From contig CM037870.1 in assembly GCA_021292105.1 (NCBI GenBank), forward strand, positions 60,848,167 to 60,912,166: DNA of 64,000 nt, given 5' to 3'. This document shows positions 13,801 through 64,000 of the stretch, piece after piece; positions within the stretch are counted from its first letter, which is position 1; each line of letters starts with the position of its first letter. The translations under genes and the position numbers were made by a program. The notes beneath the pieces are model-generated. The model searched no databases. It worked only from the letters and a program-made list of their open reading frames with translations, and was not told the origin of the DNA. This DNA comes from Anadara kagoshimensis (taxonomy: Eukaryota > Mollusca > Bivalvia > Arcoida > Arcidae).

Positions 13801-14081
13801 GTTACGACCATATGTTAATATTTACAATGAAGCAGTGGATACTCTTCTGGTAAATTGATAATTATATATTATTTAGAGAGAGAGAGAGAGAGCTAGGAGG
13901 AGGGAGGATAAGCAAGGTTTATCCATTCCAGTCATGATTCTTTCACCAATATTCGAAACTTTGAGTTCGCGGAGCAAACATATGTCCGGCGGTGAAAACC
14001 ATCCAGCCATCGGCAAGTGAAATCACAAGCTTTCTTACAATAGGGTCCCAGAATGTGATTCCATTATAGGCAGCGATCGAC

Positions 14082-14115
<34 letters not shown>

Positions 14116-15886
14116 GAGAAAGCTTAAACAGTTAAGAATGTTGTACCAATAACTATTCTCATTGTATATTGGGTCGCAAACAGTAAAATGTTAATGCAAA
14201 TTAAAGACCAAGTTATTTTTATTTTTCTACACAAATGTTTTGGGTATCGAACACGTGGTATGCGTTTGAACTCCGTTACAATTTAAACTTACAGTTTTAA
14301 AACTGTAAATGATTTTGCATTAACCTTTCATTTTGTCATTTGTTTGATATCTTTATTTTCAGGGACAAGTAGAGAAGTATTCCGTGTCTGGAGAATCATT
14401 TGATGTTTTTGAACCAGTTAGTTTGTGTACATTTGATATAATACTGCGTTGTGCATTCTCTTATCAAACCGACTGCCAGTTGTCAGGGTATTTATATGAA
14501 TATATTTATTTATATTCGTTTAAATCAACAGTGTGTGTGTGGGGGGGGGGGGGGAGGGAGTATCACAATGCACCTGTTTTGATCCTTCACTGAAAATGAA
14601 GCGCCGCTGTCTATTGACTTTTATCTAAACACTTCTCTTGATTGTTAATTAAAATATTCAGTCAATGCTTAGTCAGAAGTTGGTCCAAATTATCGATCCC
14701 GATTATTCAGATTCCCAACACACAAAATGGTTATGCACATAGCTTTATGCTAAAAGTAACACAAAAAGGAAATCAGCTGAACCCCAAAAGGAACTCGAGT
14801 TCGGGACCTTCCCTATTCTAGCTGGACGGACTCTACTAAGCCATTTACACATAGCCACTATATACGGGGCTGTTCAATCTGTAATTTGTATTGTACCACA
14901 GTGCGATAACCTTGATGATGATACACTTGGATAGCTCTATTTAGCGTGATTTACTCCGGCTTCTCTACATTCCAAGAACTGACCCCTCTCCATATAAGTG
15001 CAAATATAGTGCATAAAACATTACTTCACTTCCATTCGTAAAATATTGTATGTCTGTCACTGATATAAATTGTATTCCTTATTTTGTTCCTGTCATTAAA
15101 TGCTTTAAATAGAATTATGATCTATATTTATTTATTCACCCCACCGTGGTAATTTTATTTACAGCCAAGGTCATCCATATGTCAGTGCTGTGAGACAGAT
15201 AACGGAGTTATGGGGTGAAAGGTCAAGGTAAAGTTTTAATATTATTTTGGGGTTTTAAACCAAGTATATTCAACACTTGTATAGTAGTAAATCCACAAAG
15301 CCACAATTTTTAGCGCAACAGGCCCCGGTTTCAAAATCGTTCCTTAACTTAAACTGGCCAATTTTAGCATTGTTTTATAGTACTTCAAAAAGTTTTAGCA
15401 AAATTAAATTATAGCTGTAAATAAGCGTAGATTGACCTTTTTATGACACATTAAACTCATGAATATCTTAAAAAACTTATCCAGCTTTCAAATCTGAAAT
15501 TATTCAGCTTTCAAATTTGCCTAGTAGTACCACGATTTGTCTTTTCAGTGAAAATCTGTAAGGATTTGTTTAACATTATAGGTTATTTACCCTTATTCAT
15601 AATCTTATATACAGTATCCAGTTTATTGCCCTTTATTTAGAGACTTGCTTTCAATTTTCAGTTTGCCATTCCTTATTGGGAGACTTTATTTAAAACAGTG
15701 AACTTGATATATTTATGTCTATATATAATGTTTGTTACAGAAATCCTTTATTGTACCCAGATTTCATTTACTACATAACTCCAAGTGGCAGGAAATTTGT
15801 CAAACAGTGTGATTATGTTCACCGTATTGCAGAAGAAGTGATTGACAAAAGAAAGGAATTTCTAGTAAGATTTAATATCTCATTAG

Positions 15887-15924
<38 letters not shown>

Positions 15925-18900
15925 GTTGTCCACATAGTAGGACAAGTTTGATAAATGCAAAACAAGTGCAACAAGATCAGGTGTAACTGCTGCTATCAGT
16001 ATTACTATACTGTATAGCAGTCTCTTGGATTTGTTTTCAAAATCAATTTGGAAACATCATTTCACTATAGCATATATATGTTTTTCAGTGAAATAGTATC
16101 TTTATCTTGAAAAATATATTTTTTAAAATTTTCACTTTATCCAAAATTTAAAAAAAATCTAAAAAAAAAAAAAATTCAAGAAAAACATTTTTTACATACA
16201 TCATTATGTAAAGATATCAATTTCAAATTCTGCCAACACTTCAATATTTCAATTTTAAGAATGACATGTGCCCTTATGAATATAATATAAATATGTATTT
16301 GTGTAGTTATTTGTGGATGACATTTTATAAATGTTTTATGACATATTTCTACATTGCTTATTTAAACAGGAAAATAATGATATATCCGAGAAGAAGTGTT
16401 TGGACTTTTTGGATATCTTACTAACAGCTAGAGACGAAAACGGAGTGGGTCTAACTAAACTTGAAATACGAAATGAAGTGGATACATTTATGTTTGAGGG
16501 TGAGAATTTGAAAAACGTCTACTTAACAACAGCCAATACAACCAAAAATCGCAACTCAATTAAATTATGAAAAGCCCAATTAATACAAGAATAGACAAAC
16601 ACATGTTGGGATAACTGAATAAAAATGCCCGTCTTTAATTTCCAATTGGATGGACACTGTAGTAAATGTCCAATGGTGCGGTTATAGATATGTTAGCTAG
16701 TCCCTTAACATACAAACTATGGAACAATTTTGTCAGACAAGATGATAGAAGCAATTTAAACAATTTTTGTTTCTGTTGTAGTTCTATAGTGTGACGAGTC
16801 GTAGTAGCTCTATCCATGTATTGTGTTATAGAAGCATGGATAGAAATAATGACGTGTATTTACAGATAATTGACTATTTCCAGATCACTGTTTTAATTAC
16901 AATTATTTGTAGGTCATGACACAACAGCCAGTGCCATATCCTGGATTTTATATTCATTGGCTGCACATCCTGAACACCAAGAAAAATGTCGGGTTGAAAT
17001 AGACAAGATCTTAGAAGGGAAGAAATCTGACAATATAGAGTGGTATGTATTAGATCAACATATTTATTCTGAAAAAGCGCGTATACTTTGCAACACCCAA
17101 TGCAATCAATAACATGAAACAAAATAATTGAAAACAAAGCTAAACAAGAAAAGAAATGATAAACACATCCTAGTATTAAGTCACTGATTATGAAGTTCAA
17201 AACTTAAAATGAACCGACGGACACCAGGGTAAATGCCCAGTGGTGCAGGTATAGTATTTAGAATGTCCAAACCATATGTGTCATATTGCCACATTCAGTC
17301 GAAGTCCTTAAATCTATTTCTGGTGTTCTTGTATTTATAAGTCTCCATTGATTATCGACAAACCCCTTTATAGTACTAACATCTGACTGGTGGTGCTGAC
17401 GAATTGATGTTTTACTGTATTGGATTTTCATTTTAATAATTTATCGCCATTTGTTTTAAGAATATGGTTTCTTTTATTTTTCAAGGGATGATATACCTAA
17501 ACTAGAATATTTGTCGATGTGCATGAAGGAAGGAATGCGTTTACACACACCAGTACCGTTCATACAGAGGGTTTCGACTAAAAGTCTGACGATTGATGGT
17601 AACACCTTTCCAGCAGGTACACCATTGTCAGTTAACCTGTATAGTCTACACCACAACCCGGAAGTCTGGGAAGATCATGACCTATTTAAACCCGAGAGAT
17701 TCACAGAAGAAAATTTCTCCAAGATGGACTCGTTTGCTTATTGCCCGTTTTCTGCTGGACCAAGGTATGTAGTTTGTCAATTTACCATTATATACTGAAT
17801 GCTTTGTGTTTTTACGGCTAAGATATACTAAATTCTGTGTATTTACCACTGTCACCAGTTCAGAATCTCAAAAGCTTTAGCAGGTGCCCCGGTGGACAAA
17901 TGGTCAAAAGATTGGCTCTGTTGAACGGCGTAATTATACAAACATGTCACTCACTCTCCGGGAACGGTAACCCTGATTTTGTTTCACCATCACAGAACCG
18001 AATGCATCGATTTTGATAAAATAATTACGAGTGGAGCGTAAAACACCATTTACTTTAATCCCTCAACTACAAAACTGCAAGAGCATGTTTAAAACTTCTA
18101 CTTGAATAGAATGATGTTTGTTTAAATTCCGAAATACAAAAAAAAATAATTTGGATGATAAAGTTTTTGGTTATAGATTTTTGATGAACAAAAGGTTAAT
18201 TAAAATGTATTTCGTGTTGCCTGATGAAATAAAGAATTATATTGTGTGCTACGTAATTCTTCTTATAGATTTTACTCACAATGATCATGATGTACCAGAT
18301 ATCATTATGACCTATATTATCTTACAATACAAAACTACTAAACTTGTAAGTCTCGTCTTAAATCTTGTGCACAGATTTGAAAATTTCTTCTACGCCATAG
18401 AACAAAAATATTGTTATCTCTGGGTAGGACAAATGGCCATTTATAATTTAGTGACGTCATTTGACTCGGTAACTAATCGTGCCTAGCTATTTTACCGGAT
18501 ATCCAAATTCAAGCAGCTGGTCACAAAACCAGATTTCCAATCAATTCATTCATTGTTGTTAATTATGCTTTATTTCTAGAAATTGTATTGGACAAAACTT
18601 TGCAAGGAATGAAGAAAAGGTCGTAATTGCTAAAATTTTACACAGGTATGTATAACGTTGAAATAGTTTTTGCTTAATTACTTATTAGTTAGATTAACAG
18701 AAGGTGTTTACTCTTCAAGATCATCCGTCCTCACTTCTCTGGTGAAAGTTTACATGTTTAACTTACTGTAGGAATCACTCTGTTTGTGACAGTAAAATAC
18801 TCCTTATATCCATAGAAAATCAAACAAAATTGAATAAAGATTGATATTTTTCACTTACTTGTACGTAGTCGTAACAGGAAATATGTACGCGCATCCGCGA

Positions 18901-26622: not shown

Positions 26623-29600
26623 ATCATATTTATACTCTTCCTAGTGCTACAAAAGTACTCGGTATCTCAAGTGAAGTTTGTGAGGCAACAAGACATCCAG
26701 ATGTCCGCCATTTTGATGTAAGAATACCTGTTACAGAGGTACCAGATAAAGTAACTCACTATATATGTCAGATATTTAAGGTTGGTATGTTTACATATTT
26801 AATTCTTGATTTTTTCATTATTAATATGCATTGCAAATTTCATAGCAAACTATAAGGTCAGTTTTTCAAATCTTTTTTTTGTTAACTTAACCAAATTGTT
26901 AATGAAAATTCAAATGCTATTCAAATTAACTTGAAAAAATTTACATAAAAATGCTATTTAAGTCACTTCTCTTTAATAATAACAATTGTGTACATTACTT
27001 TTGAACAGTTTTCAGAAATATTACCCGAAACACAAAATACGAACTTTGGAAAACCAAATGATAAAGCAAACGGTGCTTTTGTCGTATACCATTTTTTAAA
27101 AAATAATCATAAAATACATTCAAAAACTGGAATACAATTTTTTGATTGTATTTTATGATTAAATTCAAAAATTTGTATCAGGTACTTTGAACAAATCAAC
27201 ACCGATGGTGATATCCAATAAACGGAGATGATCAGATTTTCTATATAAAGATCAGGGGTAAATCTGCCTTTAAGACTTTTAAATCTGTCATTTTGACGAA
27301 ATATATATATATTTCGCATCAAAATATTTCATTTTATTGTATTGTGTTCGTTCCTTATTTCTCTTGCCGAATACCGGATATTTACCTATGCTATTTGATC
27401 TTTATCTCACATTTCACGTTCATCCAAATCTTTATAAAATCCACAATTTCAGGTTCCAGATGACGAGACGTATCATGCTGTAGCGTTTGAACCGTTAATT
27501 GGAGAAAACAACATGGTTCACCATATGATACTTTTTGCCTGTGATTTTGAACCCAATAGTCTGGTAACTATACGTGTTTATATATCAAGCAAGGCTCATT
27601 TCTTCAAAGTCAAATCATGATGAAATGTGTCATATAAGCTTTCTTCCATGAACATCTGAGGTAGGTTGTATAACAAAGCAAGTATGGTTCTAATGCTCAT
27701 ATTTGTTTAATACATTAATTCGCCAAAATCTGTTATTTGCATATTTTTAAATGCTTAAGAATTGTTTGTTGAACAGGTCAGAAGTGATAAGATGTCATCA
27801 AACTGGAAACTTTGTTTTGTCATGGTTGTCATGTGTAATAATCACTAATCACAGAACCCAGATGGTTACCTCAAATTTCAGAAACAAATTGAAATGTAAA
27901 TATTCCACTGTACATAGCGAAACAAATGCAAATGTGCTGATATTCTTAAAACGGGTTTAGTTGTTTCCAATTGGGATTCTCGTGTTTACTCCAAATCAAA
28001 TATATACAAGTCTTTCTCTTATAAATCACATTATTCCCTTATGTTACAGGATCCTCATGAATGTACTAGTGCCGACAATATGTGTCGGTCATGGCTTACA
28101 CAGGTGTCAATAGGGGTCAAAAGTCAGATATGTACGGCTAAAGACGCGGGTGTGCGATTTGGCAAGAATTCACACAGATATATGGCTTTACAAATACACT
28201 GGAACAACGAAAAAAGATTCAGCAACATAACAGGTATATAGCTTCCAACAACATATTAAGCCGATAAAAATATAGAGAACATTACAAAGAGTGTCAAATT
28301 TAAAAAAATACACATGCTATGCACATTAAGTATATACATATTTTGCTGTATTGCTGTGATTATCGATGGATGGATAATTGTTGTTATTTTTCCTTATATC
28401 GATGCGGTCAGTTCAGGTGTAGTTCGAGTAAAACTGTAATTATAGACCTACTGTAAGTTCGAGTAAAACTGTAATTATAGACCTACTGTAAGTAAACTGA
28501 CAAACTTACACCAAGTTCAGCTCAAGTGGGATTCGAACAGAGGAAATACATTGTGTATTGATGTTATACTAAATAAGACTCATCTTTATTTCCCAATATG
28601 GTTACAATTAAATGCGCTCGTAGTGTCCATCAAGTACAACGCACACATTATTGGATACAATCATCTGAGCGGGTAGTATCCATCAAGTACAACGGACAAA
28701 TTATTGGATACAATCATCCGATTGGAACTTTGAAACTTTTATTTTACAGATGATTCGGGAATAAGAATATTTTACACAAAACATCTGAGACATTACGACG
28801 TGGGGAATGTTCAGATTGGCCAGAATGACCTAGAAATTCCACCAATAAGCGTTAATGTTACACAACAAGGCGGTTGTAGTGAAACCTGTACCGGCCTTAT
28901 GTTGCCACACCCTATATACCTTACCAGAACACATATACACATGCATAACCTCGGTAAGTCTACACTTTCTAGATTTCAAGTAAACTAAAATTAAGTTTAT
29001 TTATCAATGGTATATAAAGTCACATATGGATAAAGTTTCTCATCGACTTAACACCCATTCTCAGTAATAAGGCCCAATTCACTATTTCAAGATGATGAAA
29101 AATAAAAGTCTTACAAGCAATGAACTTCTGGTATTTTCAGAGACTAGACATATCAGAAGATTCAGAAACAACAAAATTATTAACACCAATTGATTATTTT
29201 GGTTGTAATTTCACTTTATTGTTGCATACATACCATTTGTATTTAAATGAGTTGATATTTACGTGACTGTAGTTAAAGTTTATCACATTCTTACCAGGTA
29301 GTAGTATTTATATGTTTATTATGCTTGAACATTAGGTTACATTGTTATTAATTTAAAAATGTGCCTTGAGACCACTTCGGCATATCGAAATGATAATGAC
29401 GATGTCTGTAGTCTACAGAAATTAAAGTATTTTTACGCAAAAATACAATAAATTTATTTCTGTATTCTCAAGTTGGTAACAGAAACAAAATTTCAAACAG
29501 GTAGTCATTAATTAACACTCAAATCAAAAATGCAAATATGCCTTGATGAAATTGATAACCAAAAGAACTGTACAAAACTTAATATCTTCAAGATAATTTT

Positions 29601-46318: not shown

Positions 46319-49300
46319 ATGGGTCATACAGGTACAGCAGCAACTTTGTATGTATTTGGCGTTCTTATAATTATCATAATAATAAGAATATCGTTTTGTG
46401 ATACAGAAAACAACATTGTCCTTGGGAATATATAACGAATAATTATATTGACTAAGCAGGAAATAGAAACTTGTGTGTATAAAGGAAAGGAACCTTATGA
46501 GTGGGAAGTATTGTGAAAGATAAAGCAGACATTTTTACCTGCTGTAAACCCTTTAATTCCTGTGTGTGGTATTGTTATTTCTGTATCGGTGTCTGTGTGA
46601 AGAGAATCAATATATCAATAAAAAAAATCCAAGCATTCATAGTGTAACGGGAAAGAGAGAAAATATAGGGTCGGACTGTGGATCGAACCCAGAACCTCCC
46701 TCACTATAGGAGAGTGCTCTACCACTGAGCTATCCATACTGCTACATTCCTCCCTTTCTTTTTTTCGATTTAACTCCCTTGAATGGAAACCACCAGGTTC
46801 CACCCTGGGACCAACCTATAGGTCGGATGAGCCCCAAAATGTAACAGGAAAGAAAAAAAAATGCAGGGTCGGACTGGGGATCAAACCCGGGACCTCCCAC
46901 ACTTAAGGCGAGTGCCCTACCACTGAGCTACTCAGATCACTACAAAAGTAAAACATTGCTATCACTATAGGGTTTTGGGTTCTCTGTTTCAGAAAGTGAC
47001 TAACCAACAGGTCGATTCCAAGGTGGTTTTGAATCAAAACAAGGAAGATAGAATAAGAAAAAAGGAGAAAAATCAGCGACCAATCTGGGACTTGAACCCA
47101 GAACCTTCCCAATACTAGCAGACCACCCTATGGATTGAGCTACTTTCCAACTATTTAGCCTTGTGTGCCACATTACTCCTTTCCATTATTGCAATTCAAC
47201 TTCCTTGAATTGAAACCACCAAGTTCCACTCTGGGACCAACCTGTTGGTTTGCCACTTTCAGGGTTCAGAAAAATCTCAAATGCAACAGGAAATGGAAAA
47301 ATTCCATCAGTCAAACTATGACTAAAACCTAGAACCTTCCCAATACTAGTAGGATGCTCTACCAGCTGAGCTAACCAGCCATCAATCTAGCCCAGTTTAC
47401 CACAATAGTTGTCAGACTGGAGATAATTGGTTTCTTTGTAGCTAATTTGGTATAGTACCCCAGGTCTGGGACTAAATATTAGAGGCTGATGTCTGTTTTC
47501 TGTTTAATAAGATAGAAATCTTCAAAATGGCCATTGACTGTTCTTTTGAGCATAACACATTTATAATTAGTCGAAGAGACCTTGGAAAATGTTATTTTGT
47601 GTCACAGTAGAGGTGGCATTGGAAGGAACAATCAGTTAATCTTGTTAATGTTTTTGAAAACCCTACAAAGATAAAATTTATTGCCACTTCACATATAGCT
47701 TGCAATGTCTCAATATAAATGCAATATTCATGAACATAAAACCCCACTCAATCAATCAATGTTGAGAAACTCTTCTATATAGATCCTGCCAGATGTTTGT
47801 GTTTACATTAAACATTAAAATGTTAATTTGTTTGAATGGTTTATACTACATGTATGTTAATCGGGGTGCTAGGTCTTGATTTGTTGTCACCTTTTTGGAA
47901 TGGCAATATTAATTTTGTTTTGTAGGTTTTGCAATGAATGGATCTGGCCATAAAATCCAGGCAAATGGTGATTCTAATACCAATGTAATAGTCATCCTTG
48001 ATGCAGGTGCCCAGTATGGAAAGGTAATCACCTACTTTTAACAACAACAATTTTTTTTATCTCCTCCTGACCATGTTGCTGTTGTTTGCTATTAGTCTGT
48101 AAAGTCTGATATGATGAACCACATATGCTTATTATACTGCTGATTCAGGGAAGTGGAGTAATGCTGTTTTATGCCACAGCCTAGATTTATATTGAGGTGA
48201 TCAGTTCTGAGTGGAATACCCAGAGAAAATCACCTACCTTCAGCAAGTGGATAGACAAACTTTCCCACACTATTTTTTTCACTCAACAGTCTTAGTCCAG
48301 CAGTAATTCACTGGCTTTCTATGTCCAAGTATTTGACATACTAACTTTCAAATTCAAGGACTGGGAGTTAAAACCAAAATACATCATAACCACAACCGTA
48401 TCTTCTACCCAAACTAAACTGAGGTCCTGCAAATACAAAATTGTAACAAAAGATGCTTTCCAATGCAAGCAACATAAAGAAGTTTAGTGCTCAGAATAAT
48501 TTAATTAATATGATATCTATATCTTTCAAGCAGTGTAATAAATACAGTGTATGTGTACTGTAACTTATGTAGATTTATGATGGAAATTATAGAGACTGGT
48601 ACACAAAAGTTATCATTTTTCAGGTAATTGACAGAAGAGTGAGAGAGCTGAATATTGAGTCTGAAATTTTACCACTTGATACTCCGGCATTTGCTCTGAA
48701 AGAAAGAGGATACAGGTAAACTTTAAATCTAAATTATATGATTCTTATAAATAAATAGCAATATTAGCCCATGACCAACATCCCCAATAGTAGTATCACT
48801 TACATGAACTGACCAATAGGTTGCCTCTTCATTAATTTTAGCTCATCTGATCCAAAAACCCAGATAAGCAATTAACTACTAGAAAAAATTTAATGATAGT
48901 TGGTAAAAATCATTTCTAGTTTTTAGATTTGCTAAAATGTAGGGGTTATGTCCCCTTTATGTCCCAAAGTCATCAAAACCTATCTCGTGTACATACATGT
49001 ATTACAAAGTAAATTTGCTAAACCTTAAATATTTCACATCTAACATTCCTTTTGCATTTGGTTCTCAACTTGCATAAATCTTGTTTCTGTGTCTAGATTT
49101 GAAATCCCACTGAGGAAAGATCCTTATGTGAGGAACTTTGTCAGTAGGCTTGTCGAAGGTTAGTGGTTTTATCTGGACTCTCTATGCCTTTCCTCTGTCC
49201 ACAACAAATTGTCTAGATATAAATGATGTAAAGAATTTTGACTGGGGCATAAAAAGCCATTAAATCCAAACCATTCAATTAAGAAATAACATTGAAGCAG

Positions 49301-52300: not shown

Positions 52301-55300
52301 TGTCCTTCTGGAGCAACTGGTCTGACTCTCCTGTTTGAAGTAAATGTTTTTAACACAATTTGCCGGTTTTCAAAGTTTTTGCTTTGCTTTTGGGACTGTG
52401 GTTAAATATTGCTTCGTACCTATGTGTTTGATACCACAATAAATGTAAATCCCTTGAAAAAGTCTTAAAAATATTGACACAATGAAGCAGTGTTAAGAAA
52501 TGCTTCTAGTCTAGTTGATTTCAACTGAATACTGATATTTAGGAATTATAGTACTGTCAAAAATATGTAATGAATCAATAACATATTCTACTGACATTTT
52601 CTTAATGAAACTTTACAGAAGTTTGGGTAGGGCACTGGTAAATATGCCATTGGTTGTTCATGCACACAGTTGGGAAAAATGGACTTCCCAGTTGGGGTTT
52701 GTTTTAGGGGCACTTTTGAAATGACATCTCATTTACAGTTACAACTTGTTATTTTTGTTTTTATAGGGGGTTGAAGAAAGAACAAAGTGTTCTGTTAACA
52801 CATGGAGACAGTGTAGATAAAGTAGCTGAAGGATTTAAAGTTATAGCAAAATCTGGTAACTTAATTTCAGGTAAGACCACATAAAACTATGACTCAAATA
52901 AATGTTATCAGTTATAGTTTAGCGTTTTGTTATATTTCACAATAACTAAAACATTAAATATTCTGTACATATAATTTCTAGACAGTTCAGTATTACTCTA
53001 TAAACATGCATATTATGATCACGGATAAATGTTATATATTTGTACAATATATTTGCACACACCTATTAACAGGTATAGCAGATGACAAACAGAAGTTATA
53101 TGGTGTACAGTTCCATCCAGAAGTGGATTTAACAGAACATGGGATGCACATTATGAAGAATTTCCTATACACAATAGCACACTGTGAGGGTACCTACACA
53201 ATGGCTAGTAGAGAGAAGTCGTGTGTACAGTATATAAAAGACACAGTGGGAGATCACAAAGTTCTGGTAAGACTTGACTGCTAGCTCCTAAGAGTTTTCA
53301 GAACCAACAAACTGCATAAAAATGTTAATTGAGTGCAGTCAATTGTTCAGTCAAATTTCTGTGTTATGGAAGGAGTGGAGTGATAATGGTCAGGGCTGTC
53401 AATCTGTTGAAGTTGAGTCCAAAAGTGTGCCCCCCCATTCCCAAATCTAAAACCAATATTTATCCCATAGAGTTTGGTGATTTTCCTAATTTGAATAAAT
53501 TATCTACAAAACTTTTACTTTTACATTACTACTATGTTTTAAGATCACTGCGGTAGCTCAGTTTGTAGATTGCTCACTCCGTAAGTGGGAGGTCATGAGT
53601 TTGATCCCCAGCCAGGTATGACCCAAGACTTGAAAGTGGGTAGTGACTGTTCTTTCACCAAGCACTCGACAGTCACGGTTCTTTCGGATGGGAACTTAAA
53701 TTAAACGAGGTCCTGTGTCACGGTGGGGTTGGCACGCTAAAGAACTCTGCTGTATAATGCCATCAGTGCAACACACAGGCAAAACTTCTGCACCTTTGCT
53801 TATAGCTGGTGACATCTCAATATAAGTGAAATATTCTTGACTGGTAGGTTAAACACCATTACTCAACTCAACTACTATGTTTTAAAGGTATCAATACAAG
53901 GTTTTATTGTATTGTAAAATCACACGTTCTCAGGGGTGATTTTAATTTCGCCATTTATGAGGATTTGTAAATTCCTTAAGATTTAATGTTGTTCGAAGTT
54001 GTTTACCTACCAAAGCTTCAGTTAGGATTATTTCACAGAATAGTTCGACAAAATGTTTCTTTTATGTATACTCAAATTGTAAAGCATTTGTCATGTATTA
54101 CAGATGTTGCTAAGTGGAGGTGTAGATTCTACAGTTTGTGCAGCATTATTACACAGAGCGTTAAAACCAGATCAGGTGATAGCAGTTCATATAGATAATG
54201 GTTTTATGAGAAGAAATGAAAGTGCATCTGTACAACAATCATTACAACAAATTGGCCTAGATGTCAGAAGTAAGTTGGAAAATGTGAAAAACACATGTAG
54301 TCAGTGTTCCAAATAACTGTTAGTCCCACAGTCTGAGACTGGTTACTTTTGGGAATGACTGGTTACTTGTTCAGTAATCTCCTATACACCACAATTGAAA
54401 ATGTTAAAATTATCAAAATGTCACAATAGACTTGGCATACTAAAGAGGCCTCCCTGCTGCCCTGAACACACTGCAATCATGAATATTTTTGTCACTTCAC
54501 CTATAGCTGGTGACATCCTGATACTAGTGAAATATTCTTAACGGAAATGTAGAACCTCAATTCAAATTAATTCTCACTGAAAACATGAATTGTAAGATCA
54601 TTTCTCACTGGCTATGAATTGTACAAAGGGAAGCAACTGCCACTGTTTTAGCATTAGAATTTCACATAGACACATATTTCAAATAGTCCTCAATTCAGGG
54701 ATTAATCAAGGGCCTATTTAGGGCCGAAATTCGGCCCCATTCCCAATGGAAAAAACATAGATTTTTTCCCAAAATCATCTGAGAAAATTCCCAATTAGAA
54801 AATTGTGTTGTTTTTAAACAAAAACGAGAGCAAATTTTGAAAAAAACCCAATCACATAACAGCAAGTATTACACAAAGCGCCTCAAGACGGAGGATGCAA
54901 AATCAAGTAAAAAGATTCTAGAAATGACACCTGCAAAGCAAGATAAAAATACAGTTTCTACATCAAAGGCTTCCAAGACCGTAAGTAAACTGACTTCTGA
55001 CATAGAGATTGAAAGTAAACCGGCAAAATGCGATGATGTCGAAGTTTTCCCAAAATGAGCAAAAAGTTGATAGTTTTTCCCAATTTTTAGTTTAGGGCCT
55101 TTTCCCAAAAGACCCTGATAAATCCCTGCAATTGTCATTCAGTTTTATCCAGTTGTTCTAGAAGAGAAGTTTAATACACTTAGGTACAAATTACCTTACT
55201 AACATACTCTGCTGAAACTAGGTCAGTTGTAATAATTACATATTATAGCCGTTTTAATTTTACAGCACTAGACGGCCATTTTGGAATACAATATCTCGTC

Positions 55301-58300
55301 AGTAGTGCTTGGACCAAAATTGTTTTTCAAGCTGTTGAAAAGATACCCAAAGGACCAAAATATATTTGATCAAAGGAGGTTGTGCGCTATGGGCCCCTCC
55401 CGGCACCACAATTTTAATAATTTTTTGAAGGGGGAAATATCTTTGATATGTTACCGAACACATTGCCAATTATACAAATGAAATAAATCCATAAAATTTT
55501 TACACAAAAAATATTTTAAACTGTCGTCATGTATCACTAAAGTACTGGGTGTTTGTCCTATTTTTCGAAATATTGACGTTTTTCGGGTACATTTCTTCAA
55601 ATTAAACTATGAGCGCAGTCGTGCTCCAAAAAGATATTTAAACTATAAACTAATGTTAAATAAAAGAACCTTGTGTTAAAATATTTTTGTGGAGCACGAC
55701 TGCGCTCATAGTTTAATTTGAAAAAAATCGTCAATAAAATTGTCCACTAAAGTCGGGAAGTATGGGGTAAAGTAAATTGTGTAGCACAATGTGGCTAAAG
55801 TGAACATTTACTTATATTTTCTTTCTGTTATAATAAGCAAAAATATATATATATATATCTGTGATTTTTGTGGATTACATATATTTTAACAAAACGGAAT
55901 CGATAAAATTTTATGCATTTATAAATAACTGTTTAAAAACAACGCCGGTAACCGTTTATGCTATAGAGCGTAATGCTACACATTTTAGAAATGGACGACG
56001 TCGTCAAGAACAACAACAACAACTGGTCACACCGGCTACGTAGATCGTTTAACAACATTGATATACAACTCAAGCTACACATTCGCGATTTCAGTGATGT
56101 GCATATAATTATGTAAATTTTCTTTTTCATTTTATTTCATGGATACTGTTATTTTGTGTCTGATAATATGGTGATACGAAAATTGGCACACATATCCTGA
56201 CTCCCGACAGTCGGGACAGAGTTCAGTGACACCGAGGTGAAAGTCACTTGTACCGGTTTATGTGTATGGTTTACAATGTAGCGATCATAATTCCATTAAT
56301 TTTGAGAAGCGGTTTTTGAAAAACACGGCAAATCAAGCAATGAAAAAAATAAAATTCAGGAATGTCAGTTGGGAGCGTAGATCGGATTACACACGGTCTT
56401 GTACTATGAAAACTTTTGTTTACATCTAATAGCGCGGTGGGGCAATAGGTAGCGGTGTGGACTTACAAACTGACGACCCGGGTTCAAATCCCGATGAAGA
56501 CTGTATTTCTTTTCTTTTTCTTTTCTTTTTTTTTTTTTTTTTAATATATCATTTTTGAAAAAATATAAATTATATTTTTATAAATTATTAACATTACATT
56601 CGATGAGGATAAATTAAATCTCTCTCACACCTCTCCACACAACTCATATTTGTTAAATATTAAACATGTATATTAGGTCCAGTTGCTTTTATTATTTTCA
56701 TTTTTTTTCTCTCTCGCACCTATTAATTTTTTTTTTTCAAAAATTTAAATTTTTATCATAAATCTCGTTTTTAATTATATATTTTTAATTTTACTATTTC
56801 CTTTTTTCTGCAGCATTTAAAAAAAATATTATCACAAATCAGGAGGTTTTATTTATTAACTTTAATTTCTTTTCTCTCTCTCATCTTTTCAGGGAATTTT
56901 GGAATTATTGAAATACATGGTTTTTTAATAATTCACCCAGTTTATTTACGTACAGAAGTTTTCATCATAAGGTGTTGTTAGATCTTGTTCTAAATACAAA
57001 TACATGTATACACATAAGTTATAAATTGCTAATATTGGAATGGTGAACTTTTAAGATAATTTGACCCTCCAAAAACTGAACCTCGTCACTAATTACTAGT
57101 ATTAGTACCCTCTCAATTAAACTTATGTAGTCTGTCTTTTTGTTTGCCAAAAGTTTTATCCTCATCGCCTCCTTAAGCGCTTATAAATATTTATGTCTGT
57201 CCATCCTTTCACTGTGTTCCCAAAATGATGTTGTCTTATGAAAGAAGATCCATCCTGCATAATTTACATTTGGTGGTTCAATACAATGATCAAGGGACTA
57301 GCACCACTAACATTTACACACATGGTATTCTAACTTGTAGAAGGAGATCTTGATGGTGCTACTTTTCAGTAAAAGTGGAAGTGAGACCCACCTTTCCTAA
57401 ATTAGTAAGACTACTCTGTATACATAACCTGGTAATTATTTTTATTTACATGTACATGCATATGGGATGTTTAACACTGATGAACTATTAAACTCGCGTT
57501 GATTGGTTGGTGATTAAGACGTCTGTTAAGATTATTTCTATTATACAGAGGCACCCAGCTTGCCTGGTTTTCTGTACCATCAAGTAACTGATCAGAGAAA
57601 AACAGTGAATTTCCGGAAAGAAGCCTATAAACATTTTTGCATTAAATACCATCCCAAGTTCGATTTGCATGAGCTGCAATGATCCCTATTCGGATGATAT
57701 TTAGGCATTTGCAACCGATCTCCGACGAGGCATTGCAGTTGTGTCTTTTGGTGGTCACATCTCATTGGTTGAAATAGAAAGGGAGATAATAACGACATTC
57801 CATTGTACTGATTTTGCACTCTAGAAAAGAAACTAATTGACCAATTTTGATGAAAATTAGTTTCTAGGTACAATCTTAGATGCTGTACATGTTGCGCTAA
57901 AAGTCGGTCATTGTGACCTTGTTTTTATGGTCTGGTGATTTTCTTCAATTTTGATCAAACTTGGTTCATATCTACGACTTTATATGCTCTACATATTGCA
58001 ACACAGAAAAGATCATTGTGACCTAGTTTTTAGTCAGTGATTTTCTTTGATACTAGTAATATAAAGTTTAATATGACAATTTTGATGAAACGTGGTCGTA
58101 AGTACAATTTCAATGATGTATGTGTTTCAACACAAAGAAGGTCATTGTGACCTACTTTTTCATGGCCTAGTGAAATTTTCTTGAAAGTTGCAGTACCTTA
58201 GATAGTAAAACATTAACGATTCTTGTTATGAACATCATAATTATAGAAAAATAACAATTTCCAGAAGTTATTACACCTTTATCTTCATTCAAATACACCT

Positions 58301-61300
58301 ATCATTGCTACTGCTAACACTATCAGTTCTTTTCCAATGTTTATTGGGGTGACTTATACCGCGATTGACCCCTGCTGAAACGCAATTTCTAGTTTCAATC
58401 ATCCGTTCCCATGCGAACGATGGGGTTCACCGCTGTACCACGTGATACTTCTAACGTGTCTGTAAAACGCTTGTTTCCAATGGACATGGAATCGCACAAA
58501 ATGACGCTTTCCCGTAAAAACGACGTTATTCCGGGAATTTGTAGTTGTGACGTTTTCCAAAATGTTCCGCACAAACGTAAAGAGGTATTGGTCATGTGGT
58601 TCTGCGGCGAACCCCATTACGTCCACTCCATATGTACATGTGTATATTTAACAATCCGTTGCTATGGGCAATTAGTTGCCATGGTAACAAATAATGTTTT
58701 ATTTTATGACTTTATACATTATGTTAACCATCCATTGCTAAGGGCATACATGTACCCATTTTTATATCCATATACTAGTAAGTATATTTAACCATCCGTT
58801 GCTATGGACATTTCGTTGCCATGGTGACAAATAATGTTATATTTATGTTCTCGAACTTAATATTTACTTTTATTGATAAATGTAGTAATGTAGAAAGATT
58901 ATTCACACAAAAACATTAGAATGGAATGAAATCTGCCACAATATGTTAAAATCATAATGCGAAATGTCCATATTTAAGATTTGCTAAGAGTCAGTTGCCA
59001 TGCACCGTTGCTAAGCAACAGTACATCAGAACACTTAAATTTTTATGTTTTTACAAAGACCAAATCTTGGACTAAATTCTACAGAAAAATCATTATATTC
59101 TGGTATGGGGCCAAAAATGGTCTATAGTGCACAACCTCCTTTAGCTAAGGGAATATAAGTTATGAATTAATTGTACATTTCAGTCATTCATTCTGCTCAT
59201 GCATTTTATATAAGTTATGAATTAATTGTACATTTCAGTCATTCATTCTGCTCATGCATTTTACAATGGAACTACAACAGTACACACAGAGAAAGGAGAA
59301 TCCAAAGCACGCAAAAGAAAAACAAACACCTTAAATACAACATCTGACCCAGAGGAAAAGAGAAAAATTATTGGTGATACATTTATGAAGGTACATATTA
59401 TATCTGATAGTTGTAAAGACTTTCATTTGACCCTAGATCTAGACTTTCTAGGTCAAATTAACTTCCTTCAAAATCTCAATACAACACCTGGCCCAGAAGA
59501 AAAGAGAAAAATTATTGGTGATACATTTATGAAGGTACCCATTATATCTGATAGTAGTCAAGACTTCCATTTGGCCCGAGATCTAGACTTTCAAGGTCAA
59601 ATTGACTGTCTTCAAAACCTCAATAGTGGAGTAAAATAAAGGTGTTTTACACCCTAGTCAAGATTGTTTTTGCTTATATCAAGGCAGTCAGTTTTTGGGT
59701 GGCTTCTGAAAATGGAGTATCCCAAAAAAACACTTAAAGGTTGGTGTTTTATCTGGGGTACTCCATTAGGACCTTTGATAACAAAATGACTAACTTCTCA
59801 CATTAGTATGTGTCTGAATGTGGATTTTCAAGTCGACCCATATAAAACACAGTTGGTTCAAATTTAGTTCCCTAGAGTCAAAAAGAAAATATTGAGGGTC
59901 TAGTTGAAGCCCTGGCTATAATAAAGACTCATTTAGTTTCATGAATTATGAAACTGTTAAGCTTATAAAGATGAGATTTGAATCATCATAGGGATGGCCA
60001 GACATTTGAATGGATTGGAAGTTGTGTAACTTTGTGTAAAACTGAATACCTTGGATGGTACTGTTCCACATGTTCATACATAGTTGAATGAAATTTGCCA
60101 GCCTACCACATTATAACACTAACAATTTAACAAAAAAAAATTATATGAATTTCCATTGTGGAATTACATCAGTTGAAATTTTCCCTTAAAATGGCATTAA
60201 TACTGTCATTAAAAATTTCAAAAGCATTTTGCACAAATGTTTAAGGGTATTAATCATGTGATACACTTTTTAATCCCATTTGATTGGTTTCAGGTAGCCA
60301 ATGAAGTTATAGAACAACTTGAACTCAAACCTGAAGATGTATTTCTGGGTCAAGGTAAGAGATCATAGTTTTGATAAAGTTGATACAGATAACGCACTTT
60401 TCATTCATTTTCAAATTTACAACTGGTTTCTTTTCAAATGAGCTATTTGATCTTTTTGTATTGTCTACCATCCATAAAATTAAGCAGCCAGAACCACTAA
60501 AACCATGGTAAACCCATAAACCCTTTGTAATGAACATTGTCATATTTAATCTTTTCCAATTTGTGAAGCTATCTGATTCTGACCCTCATTCACGGTCACA
60601 TCTTTTAAAACAGATTTTTTGAGCATCAAACATCCACTTATCTTGAACTAAAAGGCCTTAAGCTTAATATGTTGCACCAAGGTTGAAACTCTTAACAAGT
60701 TTGGGAAGCTAATTGACCTTGATCCACAATAAAAGTCACAGAGACCTGAAATTGTTATTTATCAAAAACTTTAAAAATTCATATAGTGTGTCAGGGAATA
60801 AACTCACAACATGTCCACAAAGCTGATTGACCTTAGACCATATTCAAGATTTTAAGAAAAAATTTTTTTAAAGATATTCTTGCCATGTTAAGCTTGTAAC
60901 TTCATATCGGGACTGAATGCTCTTCCAAGTTTGAAAGATGGTTGATTTGTTAGTGAACAGTTTAACCCCACAAGTCTCTTATTTTTTAAATGTACACTAA
61001 GTTTTATATTTTTTTTAGGAACTCTACGTCCAGATTTAATAGAAAGTGCATCAGAATTAGCCAGTGGTAAAGCTGATGCCATTAAAACTCATCACAATGA
61101 TACAGAACTTGTCAGAGAACTAAGGAAGCAGGGCAGAGTAGTAGAACCACTCAGAGATTTTCATAAAGATGAAGTGCGTTCCATAGGAAAAGATCTGGGT
61201 TTACCTGCAGAACTAGTACAGAGACATCCATTTCCAGGTAGTTATTTCCATATCAAGTAATGTTACCATGTGGCCAAGACAACAAGCTTTTGTTTTAAAC

Positions 61301-64000
61301 TTTCAAGGGTCGTTGGGTGAAGCTAAGACACTGGTTCTTTGATGTTCATCCTTGAGCAGGACATTAATTTCTACATTGCTGGTGTGAACAATAGTTAGAT
61401 AGTCGATTACGAGATGTTTAAAGAAACTGTTGTGCCCAGAGAAAACCCCCAATCTTTGACAAGTAATCTGACAAACTTTCTTGAACTAGGATCAGCCAGA
61501 GTAGGATTCGGACCAACATGATGCAAAAGACATTTCATTCTGCAGTTACACACTTATGTCACTGTAAAGATGAATAGTGATCAGATTAGTATGTGTACCA
61601 GTTTACTGATGCATGAACTTTGACATTTTATGAAAACAGTTATTGTAGTACATTTACAGTTATTACATTTTTTCATACAAAATTATACTATACAAATTGT
61701 TTAAGCACTGGTACATGTACAATTTCAGATTTGTCAACACTTTATTTCCCAGTATATGTACTAGAAAATTTATTTGGGAGGGCATATTTTACCATCTTTT
61801 CTTTCAAACAGATGTTGTATACAATACAATACTTGCAAACATAAATGTACATATGTAAATTTATATATGTTGGGTTTAGGTCTAGTCTAGGTATCTATCA
61901 GTTATTTGTGCAGATGAACCATTCATGTGCAGACATTTTGAAAATACAAAGCCATTCATGTGCAGACATTTTGAAGATACAAGTGCATTAGCAAATATAA
62001 ATAAATATTTTAGGTCCAGGTCTAGCTATCAGATAAACCATATATGTGTAGAGATTTTTCAGAAACAAGTGTATTACTCCACAAGTGTATTACTCCACAA
62101 GTGTATTACTCCAATATATGTTTATGTATATTTTAGGTCCAGGTTTAGCTATCAGAGTCATATGTGCAGATGAACCATATATGTGTAGAGATTTTGCAGA
62201 AACAAGTGTATTACTCAAATTTATTGCTGATTATTCTAACGCACTCAAAACTGTAAGTTAAGTTGGCTGAAAAATGTCAATGCTTAATGGTGTTCAACAG
62301 TTTACCATGCGATACCCGCATCATTTTGTGTGAAGCAGCTATTTTTATTGGATATGGATATCCAATCCATTAACATTTAAGCATTTTTCCAATACATTCC
62401 ACACAAATTTTTCAATTGGACCTTTTATATTTGTAAAATACCAAATGTAGAAAACAGTGAATGAAACTTTGAGATAAAAAAAATTACAGTCATAATTTCA
62501 GATGATTTTCTTCAACTGCTGCTTTCTACATTTTATTTGAGTCCAGTGTAAGGTTCTTTATGGAAAAATGTAACTGTTTTTCAGCAAGATAACTGCTGGT
62601 AATTCAGAACTGATGACAATAAGTTTTTGAAGTTGTGACAGTGATTCAAACAGATTTAGTAGAAGGAGAATTTTATCTAATGAATAATTTGTGCACTCCC
62701 ATAAGAAATAGCATTAGAAAAGTTTGCCTAGACAATAGCATGTAAATCTATAACCCAAAGTCTTGTCTGAGAATTACCTAGACACTTTATTACTCAACAT
62801 TGAAAATCATGAAATTATAGACAACAACTGACTGATTTGTAATGACTGCTTTTCCTGTAAGAAATATGTAGTATTTGTTACCATGGTTTCAATCGGCTAT
62901 GTTTTAAGTCGTAACATTTTTTACTGTTTTTCATTTTGTTATTTTGACATTTCAGCCACATGCTCTGGTAAACAGAGTAAAAAATGGCCTATCACCAGAA
63001 GAACAAGAAAACTTACTGAGAATTAGTAAAACACAAAATTACAGCACAACATTGTTACCTATAAAATCTGTTGGTGTCCAGGTATGTATATTTTGTGTTC
63101 GTTCATAAAATGAGTTCTCTCATAAATCAATTATCCCATTTACTCCCATTTATTTCCCAAAATATACCAATCCATGTCCAAATCACAATCCTAAAGCAAG
63201 TAAAAACTTTGAAAACTGAGAATTTAAGTTTAACATGTTAACCTCCACCTGGGAAGTGAGACCAGATGTTCCCGAAGCGTAAGTTCCCATTATTTAACTA
63301 GCTTCATCTGCTACATGCTTAAAGGAACATGGAACCTCAAACATATCCAGATAATTTTGGATACAGATTCATCAAACTTACCACTGATATTGTGATGATG
63401 GCCATAAAACCTTTGAAGACCCATGATAAGCCTAGGTTTGCATTATCCTCTATGAATAGTTTATTTGTAAGCAGCTTGCTTTGTTGTATAAAATTTCCAA
63501 TGCAGGAACCAGCTGTACCATAGTGTATTAATTGTAAAACAAATACATCATACACACCTCAGACTTATGGATCTCGCCCCCTGTCATCTAAAACATTCAA
63601 ATACATCTCGGCCAAGAGAAAGTGAGAAAGTTTGTAGGTTTTTTATCCAAAGGTTGTTTGGTTTCTGTTGGACAGATTTCTCCTTAATACATGTACATGT
63701 ATATTTGAAAGAATCCCCACTAGGGACAGATTCTAGTCTGAGAAAGGTGTCAGTACACTTGTTAAAGGTCAGTGATTTCCCAGGCAATTCCGGCTTCATT
63801 CACCTCCATAATCTGAATGCCTCTATACTCATGTAAGTTAAAGAATCATGAATGGGTATAAAACTCCATTACTCCACTCTTCAATCCCTTGTTGTAAAAG
63901 ACAGTTATTGACTCTATTTATTTATATTTTAGGGTGATTGCAGAACATACAGTTATGTTGCTGGCCTTTCATCAGATCACAAGCCAGACTGGAATAATTT
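46319..64000 (+). CDS. GMPS: GMP synthase (glutamine-hydrolysing), 3' end outside window
   Basis: Converts XMP to GMP with glutamine and ATP, the last step of de novo guanine nucleotide synthesis in the cytosol. Exons: 46319-46331, 47926-48023, 48624-48715, 49778-49892, 51092-51189, 52767-52870, 53073-53266, 54104-54269, 59239-59390, 60294-60354, 61019-61237, 62137-62252, 62956-63081, 63933-64000+. All junctions are AG/GT and all phases agree, giving about 540 codons so far of roughly 690 expected. The GATase domain has its nucleophile Cys at 49878-49880 (GICYGMQ) and the His/Glu pair at 53114-53122 (FHPE). The ATP pyrophosphatase loop SGGVDST is at 54113-54133. TLRPDLIES and GPGLAIRV follow. 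The 13-nt first exon is unusually small. Exons 9 and 12 show partial tandem duplications, described separately. Intron 8 (about 5 kb) has collected transposons. Confidence 0.96.
46640..47395 (-). mobile_element. Cluster of four tRNA-derived SINE heads, family B
   Basis: Four minus-strand tRNA-like units lie at about 46678-46745, 46868-46937, 47085-47152 and 47323-47392. They share an A box (TAGCTCAGTGGTAGAGC type) and B box (GGTTCGATCC type). Linkers between units 1-2 and 3-4 are alike (CCTTGAATGGAAACCACCAG / CCTTGAATTGAAACCACCAA), so a two-headed unit has itself been duplicated. Unit 1 folds a 5-bp anticodon stem but no acceptor stem, so these are not functional tRNAs. Confidence 0.8.
47680..47765 (+). 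mobile_element. SINE 3' tail fragment
   Basis: CACTTCACATATAGCTTGCA, ATGTCTCAATATAAATGCAA, then TTCATGAACATAAAACCCCA and CTCAATCAATCAAT, paralleling the end of the full SINE at 53541-53880. Confidence 0.65.
48146..48265 (-). mobile_element. SINE family A, reverse fragment
   Basis: GAGTAATGCTGTTTTATGCC, TATTGAGGTGATCAGTTCTG, AGAAAATCACCTACCTTCAG, ACAAACTTTCCCACAC. A related fragment lies at 49990-50085. Confidence 0.65.
49300..49698 (-). mobile_element. Non-autonomous transposon, copy 2 (GMPS intron 3)
   Basis: The reverse complement matches 7002-7410 over its whole length, including CACTGTATTCAAGAGCAATT (plus-strand view) and GACGTCATTCTGTGACGTAA. The terminal foldback arm seen in copy 1 survives here only as AAGAAATAACATT at about 49280. 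Confidence 0.85.
50268..50478 (+). mobile_element. SINE family A, near full-length copy in GMPS intron 4
   Basis: Head with A box AGTGTGGTCTAAAGCGCC, then body GAACAGATCCTATGTGAGAA and GGTACTCTGGTTTCTTCCGT, and tail AGAATCTTGACTAAAGGGGT, then CTCCACTC. Confidence 0.75.
52290..52405 (+). repeat. Dispersed repeat family C in GMPS intron 5
   Basis: TTTTTAACACAATTTGCCGG, CAAAGTTTTTGCTTTGCTTT, TGGGACTGTGG. Confidence 0.65.
53541..53880 (+). mobile_element. Full-length tRNA-derived SINE, family B
   Basis: Head with A box GCGGTAGCTCAGTTTGTAGA and B box GAGTTTGATCCCC. Next comes a central domain (GGTTCTTTCGGATGGGAACT, then CGAGGTCCTGTGTCACGGTG and CACGCTAAAGAACTCTGC). It ends in a tail (CTGGTGACATCTCAATATAA, TTCTTGACTGGTAGGTTAAA, CACCATTACTCAACTCAACT). 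Central and tail domains look conserved. Another tail copy lies at 54480-54580. Confidence 0.82.
54696..55128 (+). mobile_element. hAT-like non-autonomous element, 433 bp (GMPS intron 8)
   Basis: The ends are CAGGGATTAATCAAGGGCC and, inverted, CAGGGATTTATCAGGGTC; CAGGG is the usual hAT terminus. CAATT directly flanks both ends (54691-54695, 55129-55133), shorter than the 8-bp duplication expected of hAT. TTCCCAA recurs near both ends. A 73-codon frame at 54837-55058 ([15 protein letters not shown] near its start) resembles the Lys-rich N-terminus of ZBED/hAT transposases and is probably a remnant. Confidence 0.7.
55560..55745. repeat. Palindrome (GMPS intron 8)
   Basis: TTAAACTATGAGCGCAGTCG (from about 55603) pairs with its inverted copy around 55690-55715. 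The arms reach about 50 bp and, with mismatches, continue outward (GACGTTTTTCG against AAAAATCGTCAATA). The core GAGCGCAGTCGTGCTCC is perfect. Probably the end-to-end arms of a MITE. Confidence 0.8.
56425..56545 (+). mobile_element. SINE-like tRNA head with T-rich tail
   Basis: GCAATAGGTAGCGGTGTGGA (A-box region) and GGGTTCAAATCCCGATGAAG (B box) are followed by a pyrimidine and then poly-T run at 56505-56545. Confidence 0.6.
57840..58195 (+). repeat. Tandem repeat, three units of about 120 bp (GMPS intron 8)
   Basis: Each unit holds CAATTTTGATSAAAMKTGGT-like sequence and ends in GGTCATTGTGACCT or a close variant. Units diverge by many substitutions. Confidence 0.7.
58415..58622. repeat. Imperfect foldback, about 200 bp (GMPS intron 8)
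   Basis: The left arm starting GATGGGGTTCACCGCTGTAC pairs with the right arm ending GTTCTGCGGCGAACCCCATT, and pairing continues inward with mismatches. A 126-codon open frame across it is a by-product of the inverted arms. Confidence 0.65.
58641..58847 (+). repeat. Three repeated units with RFX X-box-like sites
   Basis: Units start near 58641, 58711 (decayed) and 58781 and share TATATTTAACMATCCGTTGC and TTGCCATGGTRACAAATAAT. GTTGCCATGGTAAC at 58675-58688 fits the X-box consensus GTNRCC(N)RGYAAC exactly. 58815-58828 differs by one base. GTTGCTAAGCAAC follows at 59007-59019. Confidence 0.6.
59154..59263 (+). repeat. GMPS: 55-bp perfect tandem duplication across the GMPS exon 9 acceptor
   Basis: 59154-59208 and 59209-59263 are identical. 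Each copy holds the end of the intron, CAG, and the first 25 nt of exon 9. Two identical acceptors therefore lie at 59181-59183 and 59236-59238. Only the second gives the conserved frame. Confidence 0.93.
59334..59621 (+). repeat. GMPS: 144-bp tandem duplication across the GMPS exon 9 donor
   Basis: Units 59334-59477 and 59478-59621 are about 90% identical. Each contains the last 57 nt of exon 9 ([13 protein letters not shown]), an AAG|GTAC donor (59390|59391 and 59534|59535) and 87 nt of intron. Because 144 is a multiple of three and the intron part is open, the frame stays open through both units to 59639. Confidence 0.92.
59640..59765 (-). mobile_element. SINE family A, reverse fragment
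   Basis: GGTGTTTTACACCCTAGTCA, AGATTGTTTTTGCTTATATC, AAGGCAGTCAGTTTTTGGG. It starts directly after the duplicated exon frame. Confidence 0.55.
61385..61515 (-). mobile_element. SINE family A, reverse fragment
   Basis: GTTGTGCCCAGAGAAAACCC, ACAAGTAATCTGACAAACTT, TCTTGAACTAGGATCAGCCA, then GTAGGATTCGGACC (reverse B box). Confidence 0.65.
61874..62110 (+). pseudogene. GMPS: Two decayed copies of GMPS exon 12
   Basis: Copy A (61874-61990) and copy B (about 62009-62085) align with the intact exon at 62131-62215, including the TTTTAGGTCCAGG acceptor, CAGATGAACCAT and TGTGTAGAGATTTT. Copy B has lost about 15 nt after GCTATCAGA, creating an in-frame TAA. Copy A has indels and an extra internal duplication (CCATTCATGTGCAGACATTT twice). 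A 16-bp phrase ending GTGTATTACTC is repeated three times at 62067-62112. Confidence 0.88.
63155..63265 (-). repeat. Dispersed repeat family C, reverse copy (GMPS intron 13)
   Basis: TACCAATCCATGTCCAAATC, ACAATCCTAAAGCAAGTAAA, then AACATGTTAACCTCCACCTG, matching the reverse of the family core. Confidence 0.7.
63567..63890 (+). mobile_element. SINE family A in GMPS intron 13
   Basis: Head-like CTCGCCCCCTGTCATCTAAA, body GGGACAGATTCTAGTCTGAG, GTCAGTACACTTGTTAAAGG, CCCAGGCAATTCCGGCTTCA, and tail AAGAATCATGAATGGGTATA, then AAACTCCATTACTCCACTC. The first part also contains an inserted older fragment (GTGAGAAAGTTTGTAGG). Confidence 0.65.

Follow-up and report, generated by a model that had tools for sequence, protein, structure and literature searches.

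A 144-bp tandem duplication across the donor end of a GMP synthetase exon in Anadara kagoshimensis

Tandem duplication across an intron-exon boundary has been described in the RNA-dependent RNA polymerase gene of potato, where a new intron was demonstrated by RNA reads (PMC4974935, as described in the part consulted). Here we analysed a window of 64,000 nucleotides from the bivalve Anadara kagoshimensis (assembly GCA_021292105.1, contig CM037870.1, positions 60,848,167 to 60,912,166, forward strand), in which the gene for GMP synthetase (GMPS) carries a 144-bp repeat over the donor end of one exon. Like the potato case as excerpted, it is a short direct duplication over a single splice boundary, and the parent copy has supplied its splice signals. 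By contrast, the potato duplication lies on the acceptor side and its intron was shown with RNA (PMC4974935, same part), whereas the GMPS duplication lies on the donor side and is unlikely to create an in-frame intron.

Two other described systems are close to this locus. Tandem exon duplications and mutually exclusive exons, as summarized in the consulted part of PMC9013439, likewise repeat exon sequence within one gene, but the GMPS duplication copies only the last 57 nucleotides of the exon, and its second unit, being an exon tail plus a donor without the exon's inherited acceptor, does not qualify as such an exon. Competing alternative 5' splice sites, of which DOK7 is an example (PMC5585400, in part), share with GMPS the arrangement of two donors and one downstream acceptor; unlike those pairs, the GMPS pair was born by duplication, lies 144 nucleotides apart and has a second donor that is only putative. 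The kind of event is thus already known in print, as far as the consulted parts of these papers go (PMC4974935, PMC9013439). A literature search on GMPS alternative splicing and exon duplication listed five papers, none of which, judged by titles and the opening of abstracts, concerns such a duplication.

The duplicated exon end of GMPS

Joining five exons of the window in frame gave a 238-aa product that matches human GMP synthase (2vxo) with E = 1.3e-109 and aligns without a gap to its residues 246-481, over 236 residues. These exons lie on the forward strand at 54104-54269, 59239-59390, 60294-60354, 61019-61237 and 62137-62252, and a sixth at 62956-63081 also joins in frame. The ordered exons match the ATP pyrophosphatase part of a eukaryotic-type GMP synthase, and the score of 188.2 bits against TIGR00884 stays below its cut-off of 338.75 with a query that is only a partial protein. 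Judged by this match, the gene holding the duplicated border is GMPS, as had originally been predicted. Elsewhere in the window, Pfam matches at 13667-17795 and 27438-28985 indicated cytochrome P450 (two ORFs) and copper type II monooxygenase domains, the match to the C-terminal domain of the latter falling below its Pfam cut-off.

The exon at 59239-59390, for which we take over 'exon 9' as a mere label from the original prediction, ends in its short form at a donor after 59390 (donor 1), splices in frame with 54104-54269 and 60294-60354, and is gap-free on 2vxo. Its last 57 nucleotides and the first 87 nucleotides of the following intron constitute unit 1 of the repeat (59334-59477, forward strand), directly followed by unit 2 (59478-59621), which consists of an exon-like 57 nucleotides (59478-59534), a second donor after 59534 (donor 2) and again 87 nucleotides of intron. 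Tandem Repeats Finder reported this array as 59334-59625 with a period of 144, 2.0 copies, 89% matches and no indels, a repeat search of the window recovered the pair 59334-59477 and 59478-59621 at 90%, and comparison of the window with itself gave the pair an E-value of 1.75e-47; under the same settings, three Markov-simulated windows contained 0, 0 and 0 local repeats. Counted base by base, the ungapped units differ at 15 of 144 sites, distributed as 3/57 in the exonic part and 12/87 in the intronic part, exactly the numbers given in the original prediction. The two units adjoin, the repeat includes the splice boundary, and a 4-bp microhomology (AATA) is found at their junction. Most likely, the repeat arose by a microhomology-scale tandem duplication, after which a spare donor remained within the intron.

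The original prediction took the lower divergence of the exonic part as a hint of selection or gene conversion on coding sequence. The contrast does not support this (Fisher p = 0.16). If only copy 1 is coding, both copies should accumulate changes in their intronic part but essentially only one in its exonic part, exonic divergence should be about half of the intronic value, and halving 12/87 over 57 sites predicts about 4 exonic changes, against 3 seen. Selection or gene conversion was therefore rejected as unnecessary, constraint on copy 1 alone being sufficient to explain the contrast. Within the 87-nucleotide insert, the 12 changes taken singly comprise 4 synonymous and 8 non-synonymous ones, with neutral expectations of 27% and 71%. 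NG86 returned a dN of 0.126 and a dS of 0.267, a ratio below one that rests on only 12 changes. The insert thus appears to have changed as expected without constraint, and weak constraint would still be compatible with so few changes. Two of the differences in the exonic part alter an amino acid. The residue preceding PE (the 'DPE' site) is D in copy 1, G in copy 2, S in human and D in the four bacterial GMPS among five of the alignments, 13 sequences having matched the product in all. On this comparison, the D to G change is assigned to copy 2. The other is S in copy 1 and P in copy 2, and its direction cannot be firmly assigned.

Other duplications at the exon borders of GMPS

The same gene carries further repeats across its exon borders. 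A 55-bp duplication in two identical copies (59153-59262, forward strand) spans the acceptor of exon 59239-59390, with AGs ending at 59183 and 59238, and use of the upstream copy would add 55 nucleotides and shift the frame to a stop. Downstream, the acceptor half of exon 62137-62252 is preceded by two decayed copies (61859-62252 as a whole, forward strand; copies at about 61859-61990 and 61991-62116, with approximate limits). From the acceptors inherited by these copies, which would start exons at 61880 and 62014, translation would reach a stop after only a few codons. A stop follows from 20 of the 21 AGs between 61860 and 62136, both inherited acceptors included, and the sole open one, ending at 62085, lies inside 16-bp repeats and is not acceptor-derived. 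Tandem repeats of 33 bp and 16 bp are also nested in the interval 61859-62252, and a second genomic locus has one copy fewer of the 16-bp unit. Among four extra splice sites inherited by duplication, donor 2 alone keeps the frame open; the other three are acceptors leading to stops.

Divergence differs between events, from 0% at the acceptor of exon 59239-59390 and 10% at its donor to the decayed copies at the downstream exon. The best reading of these data is that GMPS has taken several, at least three, small tandem duplications across exon borders. When eleven local duplications were placed at random, 0.24 were expected to fall on one of 17 GMPS exon ends and three were seen (P about 0.0015), a value obtained with events and gene chosen after the data had been seen, with exon ends before 54104 placed by eye and with GMPS exons possibly missing. 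The test omitted a SINE-like trio at 46.6-47.4 kb, a 62% pair at 16.5/17.1 kb and all other arrays except that at 28421. We consider the excess at GMPS exon ends as a lead and not as a result.

Further local repeats occur away from exon borders. Upstream of exon 59239-59390, intronic duplications lie at 57842-58190 and 58627-58844, with spacings of 104/131 bp and 140 bp, respectively. On the minus strand, tRNA-like matches at 46668-46739 and 47308-47380 (36.6 and 31.5 bits) lie near or inside local repeat blocks and are perhaps tRNA-derived SINEs.

A second, inverted copy of the locus

A search of the genome (1.115 Gb in 36 contigs) revealed a second locus about 777 kb away on the same contig, in inverted orientation, with both 144-bp units at 99% and 90%. 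Ten GMPS matches were found genome-wide, representing two loci with five exons apiece. The paired regions are 60.828-60.944 Mb, which includes the whole window, and 60.086-60.225 Mb. Their collinearity, broken by large interruptions, extends across about 115 kb of the former and 139 kb of the latter, to the ends of the compared sequence, as traced with inverted-sense matches of at least 500 bp. They differ by 1,019 substitutions in 85,704 columns (1.19%), counted over blocks that do not overlap, span at least 900 bp and reach at least 95% identity, after weaker and shorter blocks were dropped. Several apparent substitutions near 63112-63124 are probably misplaced gaps. The stretch 55375-59139, with the two intronic duplications it includes, is absent at the matching place in the second copy. 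Inverted pairs were also seen near 60.37 and 60.67 Mb, and a partner for the piece at 60.750 Mb was not found within 60.296-60.316 Mb.

The second copy keeps the 144-bp duplication and the perfect 55-bp one, unchanged except for one missing A. This deletion at 59470 (A4 to A3) sits in the insert and breaks the frame of the long isoform. Single bases are missing from two true coding exons of the second copy as well (at 54246 and 63033), and in the eight exons examined it has four coding substitutions, three synonymous and one K to R. This pattern resembles that of an alternate haplotype in which some sequencing errors remain, and a recent, decaying large inverted duplicate is possible. With similar deletions in two coding exons, the one in the insert may itself be a sequencing error and weighs only weakly against a long isoform.

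Donor choice and the potential long form

As originally claimed, an AAG/GTAC donor is present in both units, AAG/GTACAT after 59390 and AAG/GTACCC after 59534, and inspection of the splice sites found positions 59390, 59534 and 60294 to be correct. The donor consensus is GTAAGT, usually with G at +5 and T at +6. With AT at these positions in donor 1 and CC in donor 2, neither donor has the G at +5 and donor 2 also lacks the T at +6, leaving donor 2 further from the consensus. The pairing energy predicted with the U1 5' end was -5.6 kcal/mol for each donor, two of the nine donors scored being weaker, and such equal values led us to reject pairing energy as a discriminator. Either donor can be joined to the acceptor of exon 60294-60354 in phase 0, and in sequence terms the pair is thus a candidate alternative 5' splice site, with both donors compatible with one acceptor and with the frame.

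No stop interrupts the reading frame from the exon across the two units until one ending at 59639, in agreement with the claim that the 87 intronic nucleotides between the donors are open. Use of donor 2 would add 144 nucleotides (59391-59534, forward strand; 48 codons, open in the window copy) to the mRNA, repeating an 11-residue segment as originally predicted, and would place 48 residues between FMK and VANEV, which directly adjoin each other when the product is aligned with human GMPS. How often an open frame of 87 nucleotides arises by chance was estimated in Markov sequence and in the introns of this gene. It was found with a probability of 0.13 in the former, in 1,228 of 7,789 overlapping real windows in the latter, and in 94 of the 441 such windows beginning with GT. 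An open frame of this length is not rare in the introns of this GMPS gene. Multiplying these rates by one third for frame gives about 4-7% per site, at which one open product among the four inherited sites is not remarkable. In the window, the insert has stayed open despite about 10% divergence, and 12 random changes leave it open in 76% of trials.

We favour, with a probability of roughly 0.7, the reading that copy 2 is an intronic relic with a weak, little-used donor while donor 1 gives the normal enzyme. A tandem duplication of 144 bp, bounded by 4 bp of microhomology, would have copied the last 57 nucleotides of the exon and the first 87 of the intron. The original exon end would have remained on the exon, so that splicing from 59390 would still yield normal GMP synthetase, and copy 2 inside the intron would be largely free to drift, its weak donor used rarely or at a low level. 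We infer that 59390 is most likely the productive donor, as the short product is gap-free on human GMPS over its aligned length. The neutrality of copy 2 is suggested by the near-neutral proportions of synonymous and non-synonymous changes in the insert and by the G of copy 2 where copy 1 and the four bacterial GMPS have D before PE. The greater distance of donor 2 from GTAAGT, the 1-bp deletion breaking the long frame in the second genomic copy, the stops behind the other three inherited sites and the frequency of open 87-nucleotide intron frames also support the relic. Equal U1 pairing, the purine-rich tail between the donors, the open insert and the NG86 ratio below one argue against it.

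A rival reading is that donor 2 is a real alternative donor, both donors being used and the long mRNA encoding a second GMPS isoform with 48 extra residues, 29 of them derived from the intron, together with the repeated 11-residue segment. The in-frame, open insert behind two AAG/GTAC donors of equal U1 pairing fits such an isoform, and so does the purine-rich, enhancer-like exon tail repeated between donors 1 and 2. Enhancers between two competing donors, as well as SRSF1, are said to favour the intron-proximal donor (PMC5585400, in the part consulted), which is donor 2 here. The position of this tail makes some usage of donor 2 quite possible. However, the insert is without clear constraint, the D of the DPE site is lost in copy 2, the insertion would split FMK and VANEV, and, as a weak point, the second genomic copy has lost the long frame. 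From this evidence, a pair of working donors appears possible but unlikely. That some tissue uses donor 2 and makes a second GMP synthetase, in which KRKIIGDTF is repeated and 29 residues come from the intron, in a gene whose exon borders have been duplicated repeatedly, is likewise unlikely. A spliced GMPS retrocopy was sought among the 10 genomic matches (19 candidates scored), all at the two genomic loci, and none was found; one of the second-locus matches extends beyond donor 1 into the insert, with 76% identity, and represents genomic sequence.

The same observations on donor 2 could be read as constitutive use, with the long form as the normal product and donor 1 unused. Such a product would carry 48 additional residues within the ATP pyrophosphatase part, in an enzyme of which 236 residues otherwise align to the human one without a gap, which makes this reading very improbable. 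An intron gain in progress, in which donor 1 would splice to a newly formed acceptor within or close to unit 2 and a mini-exon would end at donor 2, recalls the potato gene in that the duplication crosses a boundary (PMC4974935, in part). Nine AGs lie between the donors in GMPS, and only the one ending at 59504 is in frame as a mini-exon. It sits in a purine-rich stretch, with 5 pyrimidines among the 15 nucleotides upstream, and would yield a 30-nucleotide exon. No in-frame new intron with plausible splice sites, plausibility being judged by eye, was obtained, and intron gain inside the repeat was rejected on frame as highly improbable. Finally, an assembly artefact, which the original prediction named as a possible refutation and for which the double presence of the region in the assembly, possibly as an unpurged haplotype, might speak, is the least probable of all, since 15 of 144 sites distinguish the units and the 144-bp and 55-bp duplications are each present at both genomic loci.

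With copy 2 read as an intronic relic, GMPS would provide a clean example of a tolerated short tandem duplication across an exon border, in which the exon-adjacent copy remains functional while the other comes to lie in the intron and provides an extra splice site ready for use. With several such events of differing age present in a single gene, the use, and then the loss, of duplicated splice sites could be traced. If the long isoform is real, intron sequence would have been recruited into a conserved enzyme, which would have gained a new segment via a duplicated splice donor.
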